Positions 1-8,638 of a DNA stretch of 8,638 nucleotides are shown in pieces. This DNA comes from a bacterium (GTDB lineage Bacteria; Eremiobacterota; Eremiobacteria; Baltobacterales; Baltobacteraceae). The position numbers were made by a program, and so were the translations under genes. How positions within the stretch are numbered: position 1 is the stretch's first letter; every line of letters begins with the position of its first letter. The notes under the pieces are model-generated. The model did not search any database. It was given only the letters and a program-made list of their open reading frames with translations, and was not told the origin of the DNA. The DNA is taken from the NCBI GenBank assembly GCA_021781095.1, contig JAJXXM010000423.1:1-8638 (forward strand), in the 5' to 3' direction.

Positions 1-32
1 GGCCTGATCGCTTCCGCCGTGCGCGGACATCG

Positions 33-1514
33 CTATCCCGCGATCTTCTCGGCGAGATTGACGAACGCGCGCACGGGCGTTCCGGTGGGGCCTTTCGCCG
101 ACCATGCGGTCTCGCCGTCGACGTACGCCGTGCCGGCGACATCGAGGTGAATCCACGGCGTTTTTTCAACGAAGGCTTTTAAGAACGCCGCTGCGGTCAA
201 CGTTCCGGCGGGGCGACCGCCGGTGTTTTTCAGATCGGCGATATCGCTCTTCATCGCGTTGCTGTAGTCTTCGTAGAGGGGCATGCGCCAGTAGCGTTCG
301 CCGCAATCCTTCGCCGCATCGAGAAAGAGCGTTGCAAAAGCATCGTCGTTACTGACAGCGGCGCTCGCGGCGTGGCCGAGCGCGATGACGCAGGCGCCGG
401 TGAGGGTTGCCGCATCGACGATCTGCGTTGCCTTGAGCGAGCGTGCGTATACGAGTGCATCGGCGAGGACGAGCCGACCCTCGGCATCGGTGTTGATGAC
501 TTCGATCGTCGTGCCGTTGCTCGCGCGTACGATATCCCCAGGCTTCGTCGCTTTTCCGCCGGGCATATTTTCGGTGGCGGGAACGATTCCGACGACGTTG
601 ATTTTCGGTTTGAGGGCGGCGATTGCGCCCATTGCGGCGATGACGCCCGCTCCGCCGGACATGTCGTATTTCATCTCTTCCATCTTCTCGGGCGGCTTGA
701 GCGAGATGCCGCCGGTATCGAAGGTGATGCCTTTGCCGACGAGTGCGAGCAGCTGGTCGTTGCCGGGCGCGCCGCGGTAATGCATGACGATGAAGGCGGG
801 TGGTTGTGCGCTGCCCTGTGCGACCGAAAGGAAGGAGCCCATCTTTTTCTCCGCAGCCCATGCCGCGTCGTGCACTTCGATTTCCATTCCGTGCGCCTTG
901 GCGACCGCGGTCGCTTCGGCGGCGAGGTGCGTCGGCGTCATATCGTTCGCGGGCGTCAGTGCCAAGCGACGGGCGAGATTGACCGCTTCGCCGATGGCGA
1001 TGCCGCGCTTGAGGCCGCGGCCGATGGCCTCGGCATTGAATCCTTGCGAGAGGAGGAGCACGTCGCCGACCGCAATCGCGCGTTCGGGAGCGCTCTGGTA
1101 GGTCGTGGTCTCGAAACTTCCGGCGATCGCTCCCTCGGCGACAAACGAGGCGCAGCGTTCTTCGTCGCCTGCGGCTTGTTGCGGGAGCGCGATTGCGAGT
1201 TTGGTCGCGCCGCGCTTCCCGAGCGCGCGAACCGCGCTCCCTGCGACTTTGGCGAGAACCGAAGGGTTGAACGCCGAGCTCTCGCCGAGACCGACGAGCA
1301 AAACGCGCTTGAAGGGGTGCGCCGCGGCGTGAAGCAGCGTGCTCTCCCCGACCTTTCCTTTGAACTCACCGGAGGCAAGAATATCGGCAATCGCCCCGCC
1401 GAGGAGGGCATCGAGCTCTTTTGCGGCGCCGGCGAGCGGACTCTCCGAGGGAATCGGCACGGCAATCGCGCATGGCAGCGAACCGAGAGCATCAGATGAT
1501 TGAAGAACGTGCAT
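33..1514 (-). CDS. pepA: Leucyl aminopeptidase (peptidase family M17, PepA)
   Basis: Cytosolic di-metal aminopeptidase that removes N-terminal residues, classically Leu, from peptides; in E. coli the orthologue also binds DNA. The product is 493 residues, normal for the family. The N-terminal macro-like domain covers about residues 1-160 and the catalytic domain 170-493. All M17 signature residues are visible: VGKG (K261), FDTGG (D266), SLK (K273), KYDMSGG (D284) and NTDAEGR (D343, E345, R347); by homology these are the metal ligands plus the catalytic Lys and Arg. The frame stays open upstream to 1628, but I chose the ATG at 1514: an AAAGG Shine-Dalgarno lies a few bases upstream and residue 1 then matches the family start. 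The longer version would overlap the divergent purM. It is transcribed alone, away from purM, across a 100-bp spacer. Metabolic context does not link it to the purine genes. Confidence 0.95.
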   Translation of the reverse strand: MHVLQSSDALGSLPCAIAVPIPSESPLAGAAKELDALLGGAIADILASGEFKGKVGESTLLHAAAHPFKRVLLVGLGESSAFNPSVLAKVAGSAVRALGKRGATKLAIALPQQAAGDEERCASFVAEGAIAGSFETTTYQSAPERAIAVGDVLLLSQGFNAEAIGRGLKRGIAIGEAVNLARRLALTPANDMTPTHLAAEATAVAKAHGMEIEVHDAAWAAEKKMGSFLSVAQGSAQPPAFIVMHYRGAPGNDQLLALVGKGITFDTGGISLKPPEKMEEMKYDMSGGAGVIAAMGAIAALKPKINVVGIVPATENMPGGKATKPGDIVRASNGTTIEVINTDAEGRLVLADALVYARSLKATQIVDAATLTGACVIALGHAASAAVSNDDAFATLFLDAAKDCGERYWRMPLYEDYSNAMKSDIADLKNTGGRPAGTLTAAAFLKAFVEKTPWIHLDVAGTAYVDGETAWSAKGPTGTPVRAFVNLAEKIAG

Positions 1515-1537
1515 GGTCAACCTTTCCCGTGGGTGAA

Positions 1538-1560
1538 GAAGGCGAGGTGAAAACGCCTTC
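1538..1560. promoter_or_regulatory. 7-bp inverted repeat in the pepA/purM divergent spacer
   Basis: GAAGGCG (1538-1544) and CGCCTTC (1554-1560) are perfect inverted copies separated by 9 bases. They sit 24 bp upstream of the pepA start and 54 bp upstream of purM. This could be an operator for a dimeric regulator of either gene, or a hairpin in the pepA leader. I saw no convincing -35/-10 pair for either gene in the 100-bp spacer, although promoters for both must lie in or near it. The repeat is seen directly; any regulatory role is inference. Confidence 0.3.
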
Positions 1561-1614
1561 CATTGAACCCAACTTTCCGTCGTCGGGCTGCGATGCCCTT
1601 GCGGGGCTGCGCCG

Positions 1615-2646
1615 ATGAGCGAGAGCAAGGACGCCTACGCGCTCGCGGGCGTCGATATCGCCGCCGGGAATGCCGCGGTCGCTCAGTATCGGGAGGTGCT
1701 CGGGCGCTGGCAGCACCCCGACCAACTCGACGCGATCGGTGGGTTCGGCGGCCTTTTTGCGATGCCGGGAGATGCGACGCGCGCGTTGGTCGCTTCGACC
1801 GACGGCGTCGGCACAAAGATCCTGATCGCTGCGGAGTTACAACGCTACGACGGCGTCGGGCGCGATCTCGTCAACCATTGCGTGAACGATATTCTCGTCG
1901 TGAATGCATCGCCGCTCTTTTTTCTCGATTACTATGCCGTCGGAAAGCTCGATCCCGAGATCGCCGCGGCGGTGGTACGCGGCTGCGCGAATGCGTGTCG
2001 CGCGCACGGCTGCGCGCTGCTCGGCGGTGAGACGGCGGAGATGCCGGGGCTCTACGCGCCCGGACACTTCGACCTCGCCGGAACGATCGTCGGCGTCGTC
2101 GATCGTGCCGCAGTTCCGAATCCCGCCACCGTCGAACCCGGCGACGCCGTCATCGGTCTCCCCGCGATCGGGCTGCACACCAACGGATATTCGCTCGCGC
2201 GCGCACTCGTTCCGCGCGAGCAGTGGTTGCAACCGTTCGGCGATACGACGTACGCCGACGCGTTACTCGCCGAACATCCGTCGTACTACGATGCCGTGCG
2301 GGCGATTCAAAAAGTAGCAACGGTAAAAGTGATGGCGCACATTACCGGCGGCGGTTTGTTGGAGAATTTGCCGCGGACGTTGCGCCCCGAAGTAAAGGCC
2401 GTGCTCGAACAATCGCGCTGGTCGGTGCCGGCGATTCAACAGGTGCTGGTGGAGCGTGGTGGGCTCACGCACGAAGAACGATATCGGACGCTCAATATGG
2501 GGATCGGTTACACGCTGGTCGTTCCGGTCGACGATGCCGCACGTGCGGTTGCCGCTGTTCCCGGAGCGAAGACGATCGGTTGGATCGAAGCGCGGACGGG
2601 AGAAGAAGCGCAGGTGCTCATCCACCCGGCGCGCAGCACCGATTGA
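1615..2646 (+). CDS. purM: Phosphoribosylformylglycinamidine cyclo-ligase (AIR synthetase, PurM)
   Basis: Catalyses ATP-dependent closure of FGAM to 5-aminoimidazole ribonucleotide, a step of de novo purine synthesis in the cytosol. The 343-residue product has the usual length (E. coli about 345). Family landmarks appear in order: AGVDIAAGN (11-19), STDGVGTK (61-68), ND at 91-92, GGETAEMPGLY (137-147), GLHTNGYSLAR (186-196), ITGGGLLENLPR (243-254) and NMGIGY (294-299), together the ATP-grasping N domain and the C domain of the PurM/SelD/ThiL fold. The start is the ATG at 1615 with only a weak GGGG ribosome site at 1603-1606; no better in-frame start is visible. Its TGA stop overlaps the TTG start of the downstream GNAT-PurN gene (TTGA), so the pair is probably co-transcribed and translationally coupled. 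purM-purN adjacency is also the E. coli arrangement. Nothing is missing or damaged. Confidence 0.95.
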   Translation: MSESKDAYALAGVDIAAGNAAVAQYREVLGRWQHPDQLDAIGGFGGLFAMPGDATRALVASTDGVGTKILIAAELQRYDGVGRDLVNHCVNDILVVNASPLFFLDYYAVGKLDPEIAAAVVRGCANACRAHGCALLGGETAEMPGLYAPGHFDLAGTIVGVVDRAAVPNPATVEPGDAVIGLPAIGLHTNGYSLARALVPREQWLQPFGDTTYADALLAEHPSYYDAVRAIQKVATVKVMAHITGGGLLENLPRTLRPEVKAVLEQSRWSVPAIQQVLVERGGLTHEERYRTLNMGIGYTLVVPVDDAARAVAAVPGAKTIGWIEARTGEEAQVLIHPARSTD

Positions 2647-3794
2647 AGGCACTTGCCAATCTCGTCGTCGATCTCGTCAGCGATTCGTTCGACGGAAGCA
2701 TCGCCGCCGAGGCGCGCCGACGCATAGAGGCTCGAGGCCTAGAGATCGAAGAACGCGAGCGCGACGACGCGCTCTGCGCGTGGATCGATCTCGCGTTCGG
2801 CGGCGGATGGAGCGGCGAGTCGTATCGGTCGACGAATCTCGTTCTCTCGCACCGCGGGCAACGGCGCGCCTTCGTTGCGATCGCCGCTCGAGGACTACGG
2901 TTTGCATGGTTACGCGGTGAAGGCGCGCGCCCCGGGACGGGCGTCTTCGGTCCGATCGGCGTCGCTGCCGATGCGCGCGGAGAGGGGATCGGCGCCGACC
3001 TCGCGGTGTTGGGATGCGCGCGACTCCGCGAACTCGGGTATCGGCGCGCGCTTATTCCGGCGGTCGGCGGATTGCAACTCGAACGATTTTACGAACGGAC
3101 GCTCGGCGCTCGCGTAGTGGAGCGTATCGATCCGATGCGTTGGTGGGAACCGCGCGCGCGGGTCGTTGCGATGGCCTCGGGAAACGGTAGCAACCTCCAA
3201 GCGGTCTTCGATGCTATCGCCCGGAACGAATTACCGATCGACGTCGCTGCGGTGGTGGTGAATCGGCGCGATACCGTTGCCGCACAACGCGCGGTCGCCG
3301 CCGGCGTGCGACATGTCGAATGCGACGTATGGGAGCGTGAGGCCGAGCCGCGCGCGACCTACGATGCGCGCCTCCTGCGTACGGTCGAGCGCTTCGAGCC
3401 CGAGTGCGTCGTACTGCTCGGATGGATGCATTTGCTCGACGCCGCGTTCGTCGCGCGTTTTCGCGAGCTTCTCAACTTGCATCCCGCCTATCTGCCGCAC
3501 GATCCGCTCGCCGATTCGGTCGCAGTGCCCGATGGGAGCACCATCCCCGCGTTTCGCGGCGCGCATGCGATTCGCGATGCGCTCGCCGCGGGGAGCGCGT
3601 GGATCGGGGCGAGCGTTCACCGCGTGAGCGCGGAGACCGACCGCGGTGAGGTGCTGCTTCGCCGGCCGCTTGCGTGCGGCGAAGAACGCGATGAAAAACG
3701 GGTCCTCGCCGCCTTTCGTCCGATCGAACACCGCGTCACGGTGGAGGCGATGCGTTTGTGGTGTTTCACGCGCGATCGCATTCGCGTGGTGTAG
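2643..3794 (+). CDS. purN: GNAT acetyltransferase - phosphoribosylglycinamide formyltransferase (PurN) fusion protein
   Basis: A single 383-residue reading frame with two domains. Residues ~1-163 look like a GNAT N-acetyltransferase: the acetyl-CoA-binding motif A appears around 102-118 (FGPIGVAADARGEGIG), followed by the typical LGYRRALI strand and an LERFYERTLGARVV ending; its substrate is unknown. Residues ~172-383 are PurN, which formylates GAR with 10-formyl-THF. They show ASGNGSNLQA (178-187), the catalytic Asn278 and His280 of NLHP, and an Asp333 matching the catalytic Asp of E. coli GART. The PurN part alone is 212 residues, the usual size. I start at TTG 2643, which overlaps the purM stop and implies coupling; no Shine-Dalgarno is near, and the frame's extension to 2223 lies inside purM. 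An ATG at 3135 could also yield PurN alone. PurN carries an insertion of about 17 residues after NLHPAYLP. PurN identity is secure; the GNAT assignment is good. Confidence 0.88.
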   Translation: MKALANLVVDLVSDSFDGSIAAEARRRIEARGLEIEERERDDALCAWIDLAFGGGWSGESYRSTNLVLSHRGQRRAFVAIAARGLRFAWLRGEGARPGTGVFGPIGVAADARGEGIGADLAVLGCARLRELGYRRALIPAVGGLQLERFYERTLGARVVERIDPMRWWEPRARVVAMASGNGSNLQAVFDAIARNELPIDVAAVVVNRRDTVAAQRAVAAGVRHVECDVWEREAEPRATYDARLLRTVERFEPECVVLLGWMHLLDAAFVARFRELLNLHPAYLPHDPLADSVAVPDGSTIPAFRGAHAIRDALAAGSAWIGASVHRVSAETDRGEVLLRRPLACGEERDEKRVLAAFRPIEHRVTVEAMRLWCFTRDRIRVV

Positions 3795-3809
3795 CAAGCG
3801 ACTGAACGG

Positions 3810-3838
3810 TTGCGAGAGAAATGTTTTCTTAATGTAAA
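3810..3838 (+). promoter_or_regulatory. Possible sigma70-type promoter for the lipoprotein gene
   Basis: TTGCGA (3810-3815) and TGTAAA (3833-3838) are spaced by 17 bases, each matching four of six consensus positions. They lie 16 bp after the purN stop and about 90 bp upstream of the lipoprotein start, where a promoter is expected because composition and gene type change here. The match is modest and could be chance. Sigma-factor preferences of this organism are unknown. Confidence 0.22.
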
Positions 3839-3842
3839 GGTG

Positions 3843-3851
3843 CCCCCCCCC
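3843..3851. repeat. C9 homopolymer tract in the lipoprotein leader region
   Basis: Nine consecutive C residues lie between the purN stop and the lipoprotein start, just after the candidate -10 box. A T8 run follows at 3906-3913, directly before the GGGAG ribosome site. Such tracts are slippage-prone and in some bacteria drive phase variation by changing leader spacing. A sequencing or assembly length error is equally possible. Confidence 0.5.
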
Positions 3852-3925
3852 TCCCGAGAACGTGGCGGGCGTTCGCAGACATCTGCGATCTATTGTATGT
3901 CAATGTTTTTTTTACGGGAGAAATC

Positions 3926-4741
3926 TTGAATTTTCAACAACTACGAGCAACACTTATGGTATTGCTCGCTACCAGTGCCCTCGCCGCATGCGCCGGTGGA
4001 GTGAGCGGCATTCCTCGCGTCGCATCACCCACGTCCCGCGCGCACTCGATGACCGTGAGCGGCGTTCCTCTCGCCGTGTCACCTGCCGCGGAAGCACCCT
4101 CGGTTACACCGATGTCAAACCCGTGCTCGAAGAGTACCAATATTTCAACAGACGGCACGTATCCAGGAAGCTGCATGGGCCCTTGCCCCCCGTCAGCACC
4201 CACTGGCACCTGCGGACTCACGCCGCCGAGCGCAGGCCCCCCGAGTCAGCCGCCGGGATGGAACAACTGCGTCATCGGCTGCAATCCCGGGAATCCCGGC
4301 GATCCGATTAACGTTGGCCCTCCGTGTAAGCCGATCTCATCGTGTATTGCCATGCGCCAACCAACGTCAGGGGCTCCGTGCTATGGATCTCCTGCGGAAC
4401 TTGGGGACCAGTACCCCGGAAGTACCACTGACTACGCTCACGAAATCGTAAATATTTTCCCGGTATTTTCTAATAATCAAACCGGAAATGAGGACGTTGT
4501 TGCGTGGGAATATACAATGGGGGGCGGCAATATGTATATCCAGGGGAACCAGTCGTTCCAAGGGTTCTGGCAGGACCTAGCCGCAGGTGCCTTTGGACCG
4601 GCCTCAGCCTTTGAGAGCGGCGGTATCTCCGGAATGAATAGCGACCAAGCCAACCAAATCTCGAAATACGCTGCATCTCATCATGGCTACGTTGGTACGA
4701 CTGCATGTTTCGCTCATAATCTTCCTCCAACGCAAGCGTAG
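3926..4741 (+). CDS. Exported Cys/Pro-rich lipoprotein of unknown function with C-terminal CFAHN motif
   Basis: No family recognised. I start at TTG 3926 because a GGGAG Shine-Dalgarno (3916-3920) lies five bases upstream and the product then begins with a textbook lipoprotein signal peptide: charged n-region, hydrophobic stretch 10-20, lipobox L19-A20-A21-C22. The 271-residue precursor should be lipid-anchored at Cys22. Residues 23-60 are a Ser/Pro-rich linker with a near-duplicate VSGxP...SP segment. Residues 63-153 are rich in Pro, Gly and Cys (nine Cys at 67, 83, 87, 96, 115, 119, 134, 140, 152), suggesting disulfides outside the cytoplasm. Residues ~165-271 form a more globular C-terminal domain: EIVNIFPVF (173-181), a Trp at 215, SH (251-252), CFAHN (261-265), end. 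The same landmarks recur in the exported protein at 7357-7902. A small ORF follows after 24 bp. An ATG at 3893 is the alternative start, but it puts hydrophilic residues before the signal. GC is lower than in neighbouring housekeeping genes. Confidence 0.8.
   Translation: MNFQQLRATLMVLLATSALAACAGGVSGIPRVASPTSRAHSMTVSGVPLAVSPAAEAPSVTPMSNPCSKSTNISTDGTYPGSCMGPCPPSAPTGTCGLTPPSAGPPSQPPGWNNCVIGCNPGNPGDPINVGPPCKPISSCIAMRQPTSGAPCYGSPAELGDQYPGSTTDYAHEIVNIFPVFSNNQTGNEDVVAWEYTMGGGNMYIQGNQSFQGFWQDLAAGAFGPASAFESGGISGMNSDQANQISKYAASHHGYVGTTACFAHNLPPTQA
4001..4084 (+). repeat. Imperfect direct repeat within the lipoprotein linker
   Basis: The 30-base segments 4001-4030 and 4055-4084 both begin GTGAGCGGC and match at 24 of 30 positions, in the same frame. 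They encode VSGIPRVASP and VSGVPLAVSP, respectively. This looks like an old internal duplication that lengthened the linker behind the lipid anchor. Confidence 0.6.
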
Positions 4742-4765
4742 TTTTAGTGGATTAGGGTAAATCGA

Positions 4766-5164
4766 ATGATAACTGCTCAATCTTCGCCTCAAGTCACAAC
4801 TAGCACAATAGGGAGGCCGACGAAAATTGTCAGCCAACGTATTTGCAGCCAAATTACAGTCCGGCGTCACGATCAAATGCCTGGGAACGTCGTTTTGCAC
4901 TCGGCCGAAGTGGAGCATGCTCTTATCGTTAGTCTTCATTCAGTCGTTCTCGGCTTTATTTACATTCGAAACGATGGCACCTCGTTTTATGAGGATGGAT
5001 CGATTCGTAAATTGTTCGTGCCATCACGGTTGCGTTCGAGAATTTTGAAAAATTTGCGAATCCAACCGAGAACTCCGCGAGCGAGCGGAACGATATCGAG
5101 ACTTCCATCCTCTCCGTTAGTAAAACTAGTACGGGATGGATATAGCCTCACGAGCTGCTATTAA
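4766..5164 (+). CDS. Small hypothetical protein downstream of the lipoprotein
   Basis: A 132-codon frame with no recognisable domain. In its favour: an AGGG ribosome site (4754-4757) eight bases before the ATG, a start only 24 bp after the lipoprotein stop, and a strong hairpin beginning 13 bp after its own stop, as in a two-gene transcript. The product has a basic C-terminal half and a moderately hydrophobic centre (about residues 47-68), with no signal peptide or clear membrane helix. Against it: codon use is not strongly biased to GC in third positions. A competing frame from TTG 4827 to 5048 (73 codons, GGGAGG site at 4811-4816) encodes a more hydrophobic peptide over the same DNA. At most one is likely real. 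The function is unknown. Confidence 0.4.
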   Translation: MITAQSSPQVTTSTIGRPTKIVSQRICSQITVRRHDQMPGNVVLHSAEVEHALIVSLHSVVLGFIYIRNDGTSFYEDGSIRKLFVPSRLRSRILKNLRIQPRTPRASGTISRLPSSPLVKLVRDGYSLTSCY

Positions 5165-5177
5165 GTAGTTCATGCTC

Positions 5178-5216
5178 GCGCAATCGTGACGACGCTTTGT
5201 GTCGTCACGATTGCGC
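5178..5216. terminator. Perfect 16-bp-stem hairpin, possible terminator
   Basis: Arms 5178-5193 and 5201-5216 are perfect reverse complements (GCGCAATCGTGACGAC and its complement) around a 7-base loop GCTTTGT. It starts 13 bp after the stop at 5164. It could end the lipoprotein transcript or protect its 3' end. No T-tract follows on either strand, so it is not a classic intrinsic terminator. It could also be a protein-binding or small mobile palindrome. Confidence 0.55.
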
Positions 5217-5467
5217 CTACTAACGAGTCAAGTTGTTGCGTCGGAAGCCGTGCCGTCGCAGTCGGAGGCTAAGGGCGTGACGCTCCTTCGGGCTATTACC
5301 GGCGGGCCGATCGGGACGAGTCGTCACTCGGTCGTGCGTTCGTTTTTTTTTGTCTTGTGTCAATCAATAGTTCGGTCCTTGTCGGGTCCACTATATCGAT
5401 TTTTAACGTGGATAAGTTGGTTGAATGAAAACATCGTAAGTTGTTATCTGAGAATGGTCTGGAGTGG
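5217..5467. other. Non-coding or unassigned stretch left of the insertion sequence
   Basis: About 250 bases between the hairpin and the target-site duplication, with no credible gene. A plus-strand frame from 5199 to 5516 begins inside the hairpin and runs into the IS terminal repeat, so I do not accept it. A T9 run lies at 5343-5351; a small 5-bp hairpin (CGAGT/ACTCG, 5318-5331) sits upstream but is too far from it to be a good terminator. GC falls clearly after about 5340. Confidence 0.5.
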
Positions 5468-5475
5468 GAAGTATC
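5468..5475. repeat. Left copy of 8-bp target-site duplication
   Basis: GAAGTATC here is repeated exactly at 6826-6833, immediately outside the other end of the insertion sequence. IS256-family elements typically make 8-9 bp duplications, so this fixes the element's ends and indicates it arrived by transposition at this site. Confidence 0.85.
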
Positions 5476-5505
5476 GACTGTGTCCGGAAAAGTGTGTAAT
5501 TGCGG
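5476..5505 (+). repeat. IS left terminal inverted repeat
   Basis: Begins GACTGTGTCCGGAAAAGTGT and is partnered with the complement of 6796-6825 (20 of 30 identical). This is the end nearest the 3' end of the transposase gene. The conserved GTGTGTAA core is the part most likely contacted by transposase. Confidence 0.85.
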
Positions 5506-5527
5506 TCGCGAGGTGATGTAGTTGTGT

Positions 5528-6766
5528 TCACGATTGCAAAACGAGCTCTAAGCTCTCCGGCGACATGTATCTTCGATCCGTCATCCACTCTTCGCTCTGC
5601 TCGATGAGAACCATTGTGATCAACCGGAGCGCCGACGCCACCGAAGGGAAGATGCCGATCGACCGGGTACGGCGGCGAATCTCTTTGTTGAGATGCTCGA
5701 TGGGATTATTCGAGGAGATCTTCCGATGATGTTCGAGCGGGTAGGAAAGGAAGGCCAACGCGTCGTCAACGCCCGCATCGAAAATCGCCATCGCCTTCTT
5801 GAACGACTCGCTGAATCGCTCGCGCAGATCGGCGATCGCGCGCTGCGCCCCGGCCATCGAGACTTGCGCGAAGACCGCCTTCATCCCGGCTGCAAACTCG
5901 AGCTTACGTGCCTGGGGCACGTGTGCTAGCACGTTGCGGTAGAAATGGACCTTGCAGCGCTGCCAAGCCGCGCCCGTCATCGTCGTAGCGATTGCAGCCT
6001 TGAGCCCCTCGTGCGCATCGCTGATCACAAGCTTCACGCCGGTCAAACCGCGCTTGCGCAGGCCGCGCAGCATCTGCGTCCAGCTCTCCTTGCTTTCGCT
6101 GTCGACGACATCGATACCGATGACCTCGCGAATGCCACTGGTATTGACGCCGTAGGCGATAATCACCGCTTGACTGACGATCTGGCCGTCGATACGCACC
6201 TTTTCGTAGAGTGCATCGAGCCAGAGGTACGGATACGCTCCGGTCAATCGACGACTTCGAAATTCGGTTGCGATACCGTCGAGTTCCGTGCAGAGTTCGC
6301 TGACCTGCGACTTGCCGAGTTCGACGCCCATTTTTTCCAAGACGCCTTCCATCTTGCGCGTGCTCACGCCGGCGACGAATGCCTCCTGGATGACGCCGAC
6401 CAGCGCCCGTTCGCTGCGCTTGAAACGCTCGATTGCCGATGGCATGAAATTGCTGTTACGAGCGCGCGGAACCTCAACGCTCATGCTGCCCAAGAGCGTG
6501 TGCAGAGCCCGCGTACGGGAACCGTTGCGCTGATCACGGCGTTCGCCGGTACGCTCGTGCAGTTCGGCGCCGATGTGCTTGGCAAACTCCGCGCGTACGA
6601 ACTCGGCCATGGCGACGTCGAGCATCTTGAGCATGGCGTTGGGGCCGCCCTCGGCGCTAAGCATCGCAAGAAGCGCCTCGCGCTGCTCGGGCGTCAAGTT
6701 GAGCTGATTAATTTGTTCCAAGGGGTCCTTTCGCTTGCGCTTCATAGCGCAGAGATTGGACCGCAA
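5528..6766 (-). CDS. IS256-family transposase (mutator-type DDE)
   Basis: Cuts and joins the ends of the surrounding insertion sequence, in this family by copy-out through a circular intermediate. The 412-residue product is full length. An N-terminal helical region leads to a catalytic core with the DDE residues: D184 in YLWLDALYEK, D250 in VISDAHEG, and E357 in NNPIEHLNKEIRRR. The family's CxxH motif lies between them (WQRCKVHFYRN, C271 and H274). I keep the TTG at 6766 because GAGGGG lies about eight bases upstream; the ATG at 6745 (405 residues, starting MKRKRKDP) is the alternative and matches how many relatives begin. The frame has no stop or frameshift, so the element is probably active or recently so. 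The long plus-strand frame opposite (5945-6841) is an antisense shadow. Confidence 0.95.
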   Translation of the reverse strand: MRSNLCAMKRKRKDPLEQINQLNLTPEQREALLAMLSAEGGPNAMLKMLDVAMAEFVRAEFAKHIGAELHERTGERRDQRNGSRTRALHTLLGSMSVEVPRARNSNFMPSAIERFKRSERALVGVIQEAFVAGVSTRKMEGVLEKMGVELGKSQVSELCTELDGIATEFRSRRLTGAYPYLWLDALYEKVRIDGQIVSQAVIIAYGVNTSGIREVIGIDVVDSESKESWTQMLRGLRKRGLTGVKLVISDAHEGLKAAIATTMTGAAWQRCKVHFYRNVLAHVPQARKLEFAAGMKAVFAQVSMAGAQRAIADLRERFSESFKKAMAIFDAGVDDALAFLSYPLEHHRKISSNNPIEHLNKEIRRRTRSIGIFPSVASALRLITMVLIEQSEEWMTDRRYMSPESLELVLQS

Positions 6767-6795
6767 CGGCTCCGCCCCTCGGTTGGACGGCGGCG

Positions 6796-6825
6796 CCGAT
6801 TTTACACACGACTCCGGGCACTACC
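6796..6825 (-). repeat. IS right terminal inverted repeat
   Basis: Read inward on the minus strand it begins GGTAGTGCCCGGAGTCGTGT and pairs with 5476-5505. It lies about 30 bp upstream of the transposase start, so the transposase promoter must overlap or adjoin it. Confidence 0.85.
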
Positions 6826-6833
6826 GAAGTATC
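6826..6833. repeat. Right copy of 8-bp target-site duplication
   Basis: GAAGTATC, identical to 5468-5475. Joining 5475 directly to 6834 restores the presumed pre-insertion sequence and an open frame through the junction. Confidence 0.85.
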
Positions 6834-7238
6834 CGTCATAAGCTTTGGCTGGCAATTGTGTTGCAGGCGATGGGATCACTCGCACTATTGGCTGCCGGGC
6901 ATAAATCCGCGTTGTATATTCGGACGCTTCGGCCTGCACGGTACATGAGCCAATGTAGATTATTCGATCCCCAATTTGTTCCAAAAATCGGCCAGGCCGT
7001 GTTTGTTTCGCACCAGTCGATGCCGATGCTTGTGTACAATGAGTTCGCCGTTTCACGAGCATCGGCGCCGTTCTTGCCGGAGGTCTATATTTTGGAGACG
7101 GAAAATAACGCAAAAGTCCTATTTGTTTCGCGAAATACAACTATAATTTGCAGCGAAAGCGAATACGTTCGTCTATCTCGGCGGGGCTGGACTCGCGTTG
7201 AAAAATACGTTACCGACACTGTACCCACTCGTCCATAG
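6834..7238 (+). pseudogene. Small unknown gene cut at its 5' end by the insertion sequence
   Basis: No family recognised. The frame encodes 134 residues after the target duplication. Removing the IS and one duplication copy makes it continuous with GTG GGA AGT ATC at 5464-5475, giving a 138-residue product. That product would begin like a signal peptide or membrane anchor: basic residues at 5-7, then an uncharged stretch LWLAIVLQAMGSLALLAAG. This fits an exported or membrane-anchored protein, like its neighbours. The C-terminal part (from about LPEVYILETE to RRGWTRVEKYV) looks like alternating strands and a small globular domain. Without the native start, translation could begin only inside the IS or at ATG 6870, which would lose most of the signal. 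No good ribosome site precedes the reconstructed GTG, so the gene's reality is moderately supported. It ends 118 bp before the next gene. Confidence 0.45.
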
Positions 7239-7356
7239 GAAGCAACGGTTGGTAATCGTTCCATGCTTTTCTAGGAAATGGAATTGGGAATACCCTACAA
7301 ATCCTGCGTCGTAGTTAAAGCAGCCGCACCGGAGGTCGAACGAAAGTGGAGTGCGA

Positions 7357-7902
7357 ATGCGGTGTTCGATGCGGCGCTTCACGCTCGGTCTCTTAGCCAC
7401 GTTGCTGCTGCAGCCGGCTTCCGCCTCGGCGGGCAGTCGGCTGCTCGAGCCATCGGCGGTCGCCGGCGCGGTTTGCACCTTTGGCCCCTACCATTACGGA
7501 GCGATAGGGTCGGTGCTCGACGGCGCCCCCGACCGGCCCGGAATTCACGGCAATGAAGTACAACAGATCTACCGCGTCTTCTTTCGATCGAAACGGCGCG
7601 GTCGCGCAACGATCGGCTTTGCCGGGTGGCTAGCGTCGACCTTCGATGGTCATTTTTGGTTTACTCCCTCGCCGACGATCGTCGGCAACGCTGCGTCTCG
7701 GGCTTCCTCACTCGCAAACGACGCCATATCGGTCGTCGTCGTTCATGCACATCGCCTACCGCTAGGTGCCTGGATCTCGGAGCTGCGCGAGCATGCAGGC
7801 GTGCCGCCAACCGTGTCGATGCTGGATGTTCTTCGATCGCATCAAGTTGCGACGGCGCTCTCACCCTGCTTTGCCCACAATTGGAACGGCACTTCGCAGT
7901 AG
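7357..7902 (+). CDS. Sec-exported protein of unknown function with C-terminal CFAHN motif
   Basis: No known family recognised. ATG 7357 is chosen because GGAG (7348-7351) lies five bases upstream; GTG 7351 is the nearby alternative. The 181-residue precursor has a clear Sec signal peptide: Arg-rich n-region, LGLLATLLL core, likely cleavage after ASA at residue 25, with no lipobox, so it should be periplasmic or secreted. The mature part carries EVQQIYRVF (67-75), an AW at 138-139, SH (161-162) and CFAHN (171-175) ending six residues before the stop. The same landmarks in the same order, with the same spacing from SH to the stop, occur in the lipoprotein at 3926-4741, so I infer one divergent family. 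Its last 42 bases overlap the 3' end of metX on the other strand. Only two Cys (40 and 171) occur in the mature protein, compatible with one disulfide. Confidence 0.75.
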   Translation: MRCSMRRFTLGLLATLLLQPASASAGSRLLEPSAVAGAVCTFGPYHYGAIGSVLDGAPDRPGIHGNEVQQIYRVFFRSKRRGRATIGFAGWLASTFDGHFWFTPSPTIVGNAASRASSLANDAISVVVVHAHRLPLGAWISELREHAGVPPTVSMLDVLRSHQVATALSPCFAHNWNGTSQ

Positions 7903-8638
7903 ACGGTTTCCAGCGAACGCAAGGGTGTTTGCTTCTAAGGTCCTAGCGAGCGCGGCGTCCTCGGCAAGAAAGGCGTCGTGGCCGTGCTCGCTCTGGAACT
8001 CGATATAGCGAGCATCTATTCCCGCACACGCGATGCGTTCGGCGGAATCGCGAACCTCGCGCGCCGGGAAGAGCGTATCCGAGGAGATGCCCACGAAGGT
8101 GAGCGGCGGCGTCCCGTCCGGCCAACGCGCGTCGCGCAGGTCGAAGGAATCCATCGCATGGGTGAGCGTCACGTAGGTGGCGGCGTCGATGCGCTCGACG
8201 AGCTTTGTGGCTTGAGCTGCAAGAAACCCCTCGACGTCGAATCGCCGCACCCCGTTGCGGTCGGGGCGGCGACCGTGGCGCCGCGAGAGCAAGGCATCGC
8301 TCTTGTACGAAAGCATTGCGATTTTTCGGGCGAGCCCGAGCCCCTCGATCGGATCGAGGGCGATGGCATCGCGTTGGATGCTATTGAGTGCGATCGCCGT
8401 CGTCCCGGTTCGATCGGGCGCACCGATAACGATGGCGCGGCCGACGCGTTCGGGGGCATCGTGCGCCCACTGCAGCGCCTGCATGCCTCCCATCGACCCG
8501 CCGATCGCGAGCTCGACGTGCTCGATCCCGAGAAAATCGAGCGCGCGCCGCTGCGCGCGGACGATATCACCGATGGTAATGCGCGCGCGCACCCGCGTCG
8601 ATCCGTAACTCGAACCGAGCATGTTGATCCCGACGATG
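7861..8638 (-). CDS. metX: Homoserine O-acetyltransferase (MetX), 3' part
   Basis: Alpha/beta-hydrolase-fold acyltransferase that activates homoserine for methionine synthesis, usually with acetyl-CoA; some family members use succinyl-CoA, which I cannot distinguish here. The gene enters from the right edge, so roughly the first 100 residues are missing; the codons beyond the Met at 8622 (IVGIN) continue the conserved strand before the GSSYGST oxyanion region. Counting from that Met, the catalytic triad is present: S43 in GGSMGGMQ, D182 in SSDTLFP, H215 in EHGHDAFL, plus the family-typical GRRPDRNG segment and VRAQRRALDFLGIE. After GHDAFL there are about 37 residues; the last 13 lie in the 42-bp tail overlap with the exported-protein gene and look non-conserved, suggesting the original 3' end was replaced or extended when the neighbouring DNA arrived. 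It is transcribed toward the accessory region. Confidence 0.93.
   Translation of the reverse strand, partial: IVGINMLGSSYGSTRVRARITIGDIVRAQRRALDFLGIEHVELAIGGSMGGMQALQWAHDAPERVGRAIVIGAPDRTGTTAIALNSIQRDAIALDPIEGLGLARKIAMLSYKSDALLSRRHGRRPDRNGVRRFDVEGFLAAQATKLVERIDAATYVTLTHAMDSFDLRDARWPDGTPPLTFVGISSDTLFPAREVRDSAERIACAGIDARYIEFQSEHGHDAFLAEDAALARTLEANTLAFAGNRLLRSAVPIVGKAG

Follow-up and report, generated by a model that had tools for sequence, protein, structure and literature searches.

The window analysed here is the whole stretch of 8,638 nucleotides (positions 1 to 8,638, forward strand, of contig JAJXXM010000423.1, assembly GCA_021781095.1) from a bacterium of the family Baltobacteraceae, phylum Eremiobacterota. 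It carries a lipoprotein gene, a small gene directly behind it and, past an insertion sequence (IS), two more small genes, one broken and one apparently intact, which are considered here as a candidate polymorphic effector-immunity system (Table 1). The C-terminal domain of the lipoprotein is called the C-domain, and the small genes with a related domain are called partners. The C-domain types (I to VIII, X and XI) are labels coined in this analysis, and type IX is the cassette of locus L004. A preliminary description of this DNA had noticed a likeness between the ends of the lipoprotein and of the 7357-7902 product, and missed that the C-domain is exchangeable and that, as judged from the profiles, 4766-5164 and part of the 6735-7238 frame are also in the family.

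Table 1. Features of the lipoprotein locus in the window.
Feature	Positions	Strand	Remarks
Lipoprotein gene with type I C-domain (effector-like)	3926-4741	+	start TTG at 3926 or ATG at 3956
Lipobox LAAC, Cys at 3989-3991	within 3926-4741	+	by inspection, without predictor
Constant N-part: signal, lipobox, Cys-rich linker	3926-4345	+	invariant columns; mosaic identities
Type I exchangeable C-domain	4349-4738	+	invariant Cys at 4379-4381 and 4706-4708
Cognate type I partner, C-domain homologue	4766-5164	+	no evident signal peptide
Segment absent from the syntenic relative L001	5212-7945		205 bp there in L001
IS256/mutator-type insertion sequence, transposase 5528-6766	5476-6825	-	PF00872, E 3.2e-115
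Broken orphan type III partner	6834-7344	+	body 6855-7184; end motif in other frame (tblastn 7138-7344)
Orphan type VII partner with signal peptide (by inspection)	7357-7902	+	invariant Cys at 7474-7476 and 7867-7869

The partner next to the lipoprotein gene is 67% identical to the 132-residue product of the gene at the same place behind the lipoprotein of L001. Window positions 2-5211 align with L001 6015-11219 at 80% and positions 7946-8638 with L001 11425-12117 at 79%, the two loci occupying the same purN-metX chromosomal slot. The window holds an extra 2.7 kb, in which lie the IS (with the 8-bp repeat GAAGTATC on either side, at 5468-5475 and 6826-6833), the broken type III partner and 7357-7902. 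The body of the broken gene is 41% identical to the partner behind the type III lipoprotein of L019, from residue 14 of the latter on, and the IS has probably removed the start of the broken gene. The 7357-7902 gene is considered an orphan type VII partner, apparently intact, because it resembles (40% identity) the gene that immediately follows the type VII lipoprotein of L045 in cognate arrangement.

Searching 5.8 billion proteins with the lipoprotein returned 15 at E<=1, counting the cluster of the window itself. With an alignment as query, 18 proteins were returned, 5 of them new. Most relatives present a signal with a lipobox, and all except P0004 and P0005 share the Cys-rich linker ending in SSC (invariant columns, 13 rows). 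This linker of the N-part (..PPGWNNCVIGCNPGNPGDPINVGPPCxPxSSC) is common to proteins with other C-domains, and the parts past it differ. The N-parts are 99% identical over 141 residues between L001 and P0006, with C-domains at noise level, 96% identical over 140 residues between L002b and L004, with different C-domains, and 89% identical over 140 residues between the window and P0003, with C-domains at 27%; the C-domains of these three pairs are just 20-31% alike. Conversely, C-domains that are 82-91% alike occur on different N-parts, such as those of the window and P0005 (83% identical, on N-parts 30% alike) and of P0010 and P0021 (91% identical, on N-parts 41% alike). These mosaics indicate that the lipoprotein is a constant N-part joined to an exchangeable C-domain. 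Moreover, L002 contains two tandem lipoproteins of different type, each followed by its own small gene.

Concerning the likeness between the two exported proteins, the preliminary description reported one shared signature (SH-x8-CFAHN-x3-T-x2-stop). On re-reading the sequence it is exact at both ends, with the CFAHN codons at 4706-4720 and 7867-7881 and synonymous differences in four of the five. Aligned at the stop, the two tails share 8 of their final 26 residues, and at least 8 such identities appeared in 25 of 200,000 random tail pairs drawn from each protein's own last 100 residues. Taken alone as proof of relatedness, the tail match is suggestive and not decisive, because it concerns a single hand-picked pair and BLASTP between these two proteins gives E 0.13, with the tail as the sole match of note. 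The comparison of profiles with hhalign was more informative. Type I/II C-domains matched type VII partners directly (P 36%, E 3.8e-4) and a chain also joins them, from type I to type X C-domains (94%), from X to VII (97%) and from the type VII C-domain to its partner (98%), with column-shuffled controls for the type matrix reaching at most 3.1%; the direct cell between type I and the type VII partner in that type-by-type matrix, where the profiles are smaller, was 1.0%. Owing to the direct match and the chain, the C-termini of 3926-4741 and 7357-7902 are judged to be truly related: the first is an effector-like C-domain, the second a partner that belongs to another type.

That the two ends are unrelated and match by coincidence would agree with the BLASTP value and with the fate of the long signature, which is not conserved as a unit in either family: its SH and T drift, and relatives carry CFSHN, CFSNN, CFAHD, CFSRN, CFSHD, CFSQG, CFTGS and others instead of CFAHN. 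Against the profile matches, and against predicted structures that present the main strands and helices in the same order (one model being of low confidence), this explanation is extremely improbable. The model of 7357-7902 is of moderate quality and that of the type I C-domain is poor; both show two long strands, a short strand and then helices, and the better one closes with a strand near the second Cys. Foldseek gave a bacterial kinase complex as its top row (E 0.18) and rows for HipA/HipS at E 0.7 and above; the likeness to the HipA N-terminal subdomain or HipS is thus not significant and may be just a common strand arrangement.

The only invariant columns among 21 C-domains and partners are two Cys, one close to where the domain begins and the other close to the stop, and for this reason a disulfide linking the start and the end of the domain is the natural reading. 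Among the three roles suggested earlier for the terminal Cys/His motif, disulfide closure is therefore the best, and a sorting signal or a metal or heme site is not supported, as the His of the motif is not conserved in the tails of relatives. Of the two upstream landmarks described, E[IV]xxI[FY]xVF corresponds to a strand common to both proteins, aligned in the profile comparisons, and the Gly-x-Trp followed by [DE]L did not align between them in either alignment examined. The proposal of a divergent exported family with a C-terminal domain on different anchors stands, for a domain of about 100-150 residues, without 7357-7902 being a mere second type of anchor. The lack of a named family also agrees with the scans, as neither protein scored above cut-off in Pfam, NCBIfam or PADLOC.

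A scan of the window and of L001 to L077 with one profile per type gave 72 unique matches: 24 to C-domains, 36 to partners and 12 to the general profile only. Four C-domain matches were left out, namely two pieces in L020 (106 bp before the end of the contig), L007 (which partly duplicates L002) and the freestanding L003 1152-1829. Behind all 20 remaining typed C-domain genes, which have downstream sequence, lies a partner of matching type whose domain starts 24-96 nt past the stop; the partner profiles were built from those same genes except L070, so agreement of type is built in for the rest. Six partner matches, from a conserved single gene that stands apart, were excluded from the count. 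The other 30 comprise 21 cognate partners (that of L024 sits behind a truncated C-domain), 8 without a C-domain gene upstream and 1 at a contig edge (L062). Orphans are hence one-sided among the typed genes: 8 of 30 partners lack a C-domain, versus none of the 20 C-domain genes lacking a partner. They belong to types I, III, VI, VII, VIII and X, two of them lie in the window, and the weakest are L030 96-413 (29 bits), L055 2853-3143 (35 bits) and L077 (a short frame). Besides 7357-7902, P0019, also found in L044, is an orphan partner.

Other arrangements were seen around the partners. In L060, a type VI C-domain fragment (1189-1893) lies beside a partner that scores like intact ones, a possible case of an effector in decay whose partner persists. 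In L026 (2-831) and L046 (2252-2869), more partner-like small genes, weakly matched, follow the cognate pair in series, as if orphan arrays grew downstream. The separate single gene (L068, L069, L072, L073, L074 and L076) encodes a conserved secreted single-domain protein (CLDSxRAVP..IVRIDQV..GFLYTT..GTTWLGER..) that matches the type X partner weakly (27-44 bits), and no Pfam match was found for those of L069 and L073. This protein could be a housekeeping ancestor of the domain.

Two explanations that give the downstream genes another function can be weighed here. In the first, both products would be active subunits of a two-component secreted bacteriocin or of a heteromeric complex, as might be expected from adjacent genes with homologous, Cys-bearing products. 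Orphan partners of six types argue against it, as do the partners of the window and L001, apparently without an export signal, and the zincin-like cassette of L004, which is followed by an unrelated open reading frame (ORF); we regard it as quite improbable. In the second, the lipoprotein would undergo antigenic variation, with the downstream copies serving as its silent donor cassettes. Tandem related domains and mosaic lipoproteins are consistent with this; however, the downstream genes begin with start codons of their own, their products often have a hydrophobic N-terminal end, they are much diverged from the C-domain ahead of them, and the C-domains of the lipoproteins are instead near-copies of those in other strains, which makes donor cassettes very improbable.

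Regarding the kinship between partners and C-domains, pairwise z-scores reached about 18. The cognate partner was the top hhalign match for 7 of 9 C-domain types (permutation p 1.5e-5), and cognate pairing also appeared in a second measure, the z-score matrix, which covers largely the same proteins (p 3e-4). For type X the cognate partner ranked second. Over a tree of 49 domains, the switch between C-domain and partner must be made 6 times, of which starred branches force 2. Placing all partners in one clade was rejected by the AU test in the full tree (p 0.0024) and again in a reduced tree without eight long or distant rows (p 0.0016). Type VI C-domains and partners form one starred clade (99/98 in the reduced tree and 98/99 in the full one), and those of type VII form a clade that is starred in the reduced tree (97/91) and unstarred in the full one (94/93). 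The corresponding clades of types V and VIII are unstarred in the reduced tree (94/91 and 61/20), and the partners of types I and II group together (100/97). Because trees with a single partner clade are rejected and because of the type VI and VII clades, the split between C-domain and partner, in either direction, is judged to have occurred more than once.

The best explanation, and a fairly probable one, is a polymorphic lipoprotein effector-immunity locus whose partners would be neutralisers. This reading draws on the constant arm, the swapped tip, the adjacent small gene, the one-sided orphans, the tandem copies and a protease-like cassette described below. The lipoprotein would be a constant, lipid-anchored arm ending in an exchangeable, probably disulfide-closed effector domain, and 4766-5164 its type-specific neutraliser. 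Recombination would swap effector domain and neutraliser together behind the arm, and older neutralisers would stay downstream as orphans, here the decayed type III and the apparently intact type VII genes. The cell is likely diderm and equipped with lipoproteins, since Omp85 was found in 4 of 4 genomes searched and the lipoprotein signal peptidase (PF01252) in 8 of 9 relative genomes searched. An Ala after the lipobox Cys follows the rule for outer-membrane lipoproteins, and this is the residue found here, so the lipoprotein may be placed in the outer membrane, from which it would be passed to neighbouring cells. The neutralisers, homologues of the effector domain (the two having split more than once), may pair or compete with the effector fold, blocking the tip by binding the effector domain or by occupying its target.

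A possible extension, held tentatively and somewhat short of probable, is that in this bacterial family a given effector specificity comes with an antidote derived from the effector domain itself. The domain would have been duplicated, lost its arm and become an inhibitor, several separate times, most plainly in types VI and VII, which stand away from the clade that type I and II partners share. The sister domains would then diversify jointly and continually, with the inhibitor as a decoy or dominant-negative copy of the effector.

The cassette of L004 carries HELDH, an HExxH zinc motif. It weakly resembles the zinc protease family Peptidase_M91 ("Effector protein", PF14891; E 7.8e-4, 20.3 bits, sub-threshold to a 25-bit gathering cut-off); the likeness concerns the motif and this match, in one cassette only. 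The lipoprotein with this zincin-like C-terminus (5757-7034) is followed by a small, unrelated ORF with a hydrophobic N-terminus (7038-7562), without domain match in the type-profile scan, and then, close to where the contig ends, by the beginning of a further lipoprotein. P0024, from an ENA contig, is a piece near-identical to the type IX cassette.

This cassette bears on an explanation by recognition or adhesion, in which the lipoprotein would display a variable surface domain and the secreted lookalike would serve as its ligand or as the second half of a dimer, allowing each strain to recognise itself with no killing involved. Homologous and mostly type-matched C-domains and partners would suit it, and so would a common domain without a toxin family. 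It is nevertheless unlikely given the HELDH cassette, protease-like below threshold, on the same arm, the orphan partners without C-domain genes and the broken orphan tolerated in the window.

The effector-immunity layout has known counterparts. In the sections of PMC5562445 and PMC8546572 used here, the SitA-SitI loci of myxobacteria comprise a toxin with a lipobox, a conserved N-part and unrelated C-domains, with a type-specific small gene directly downstream and mobile elements nearby, as in our case. The lineage studied here, however, is taken as not belonging to Myxococcota, and the first of these sources, in the same sections, reports no SitA homologues outside Myxococcales by HMMER. It describes SitA C-domains as typically nuclease-like, with the tested ones acting in the cytoplasm, and does not call SitI a toxin homologue, whereas the partners here are homologues of the C-domain. 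Pfam and NCBIfam scans of five lipoproteins (those of the window, L002 2477, L004, L040 and L045) gave no nuclease family, although the SitA nucleases were, according to that part of the source, recognised by HHpred instead. Orphan immunity arrays of the type VI secretion system (T6SS) in Vibrio cholerae are explained, in the portion of PMC5361080 consulted, by effector displacement, and in them too a cognate pair precedes immunity-like genes with effectors located elsewhere. They differ from the present loci, where the effector would be a lipoprotein, the partner is homologous to the effector domain and the T6SS protein Hcp was matched in none of ten genomes. Divergent orphan immunity proteins can protect, as stated in the portion of PMC12247911 cited. 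The layout is that of a polymorphic toxin-immunity locus with orphan immunity genes, similar to SitA, and a variant of such systems is the likely identity of the locus.

Several points weigh against the effector-immunity reading. What the sequences show is the swapping of modules, the linkage and the homology of C-domain and partner, cognate matching for most types, the orphans and the synteny; toxicity is proposed, as are neutralisation, outer-membrane anchoring, delivery between cells and the mode of inhibition. The common C-domain had no match to a solved structure at E<=0.001 and none above cut-off in the Pfam and NCBIfam scans, and the M91 match of L004 lies under the Pfam cut-off. A lactate oxidase chain matches the stretch past HELDH with a similar value (E 4e-4, search of PDB sequences), and the L004 cassette may be a remnant in that metagenome-assembled genome, because the N-terminal frame of its lipoprotein is broken there. 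A delivery machine was not found: the ten genomes without Hcp, in a search that matched the E. coli control, are metagenome-assembled and possibly incomplete, and one of them (G017) gave no domain match. Cognate matching fails for the window's own type I, whose C-domain matches its partner at P 2.1% and those of types II, VI and VIII at about 95%; for types III and IV the cognate match is best yet weak (18% and 4%), and a clade of type II C-domain and partner is rejected (p 0.02). L066, one of the 12 unclassified general matches, is effector-like by its linker and its downstream frame matches at only E 0.93, a value so weak that the linkage of 20 in 20 holds for typed genes only. The partners of the window and L001 and two or three of type V have no visible signal peptide by eye, so a uniform periplasmic antidote fits poorly. 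Finally, to our knowledge, a toxin and an antidote that are homologous are not the usual arrangement.

Regarding distribution, in one family the profile of C-domains and partners matched 43 of 99 genomes at E<=0.01, a part of them by way of the conserved single gene alone. Across the phylum, at E<=1e-5, it matched 23 of 149 genomes, and G122, among these, lies outside that family. Upstream of the lipoprotein gene, window positions 2646-3794 form a single frame that fuses an acetyltransferase-like part (PF00583, 19.4 bits, just under the 20.7 cut-off) and a PurN-like formyltransferase (PF00551), and its L001 counterpart appears split over two frames.

If the partners are antidotes, their repeated and mostly type-matched origin from the effector domain would give a handle on how immunity genes arise, with nine types available for study pair by pair. 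If the reading is true, this would moreover be a second lineage with lipoprotein-borne polymorphic toxins, described in the sections of PMC5562445 and PMC8546572 used here for myxobacteria only, and the system would add a domain family for which the Pfam, NCBIfam and PADLOC scans gave nothing above cut-off.

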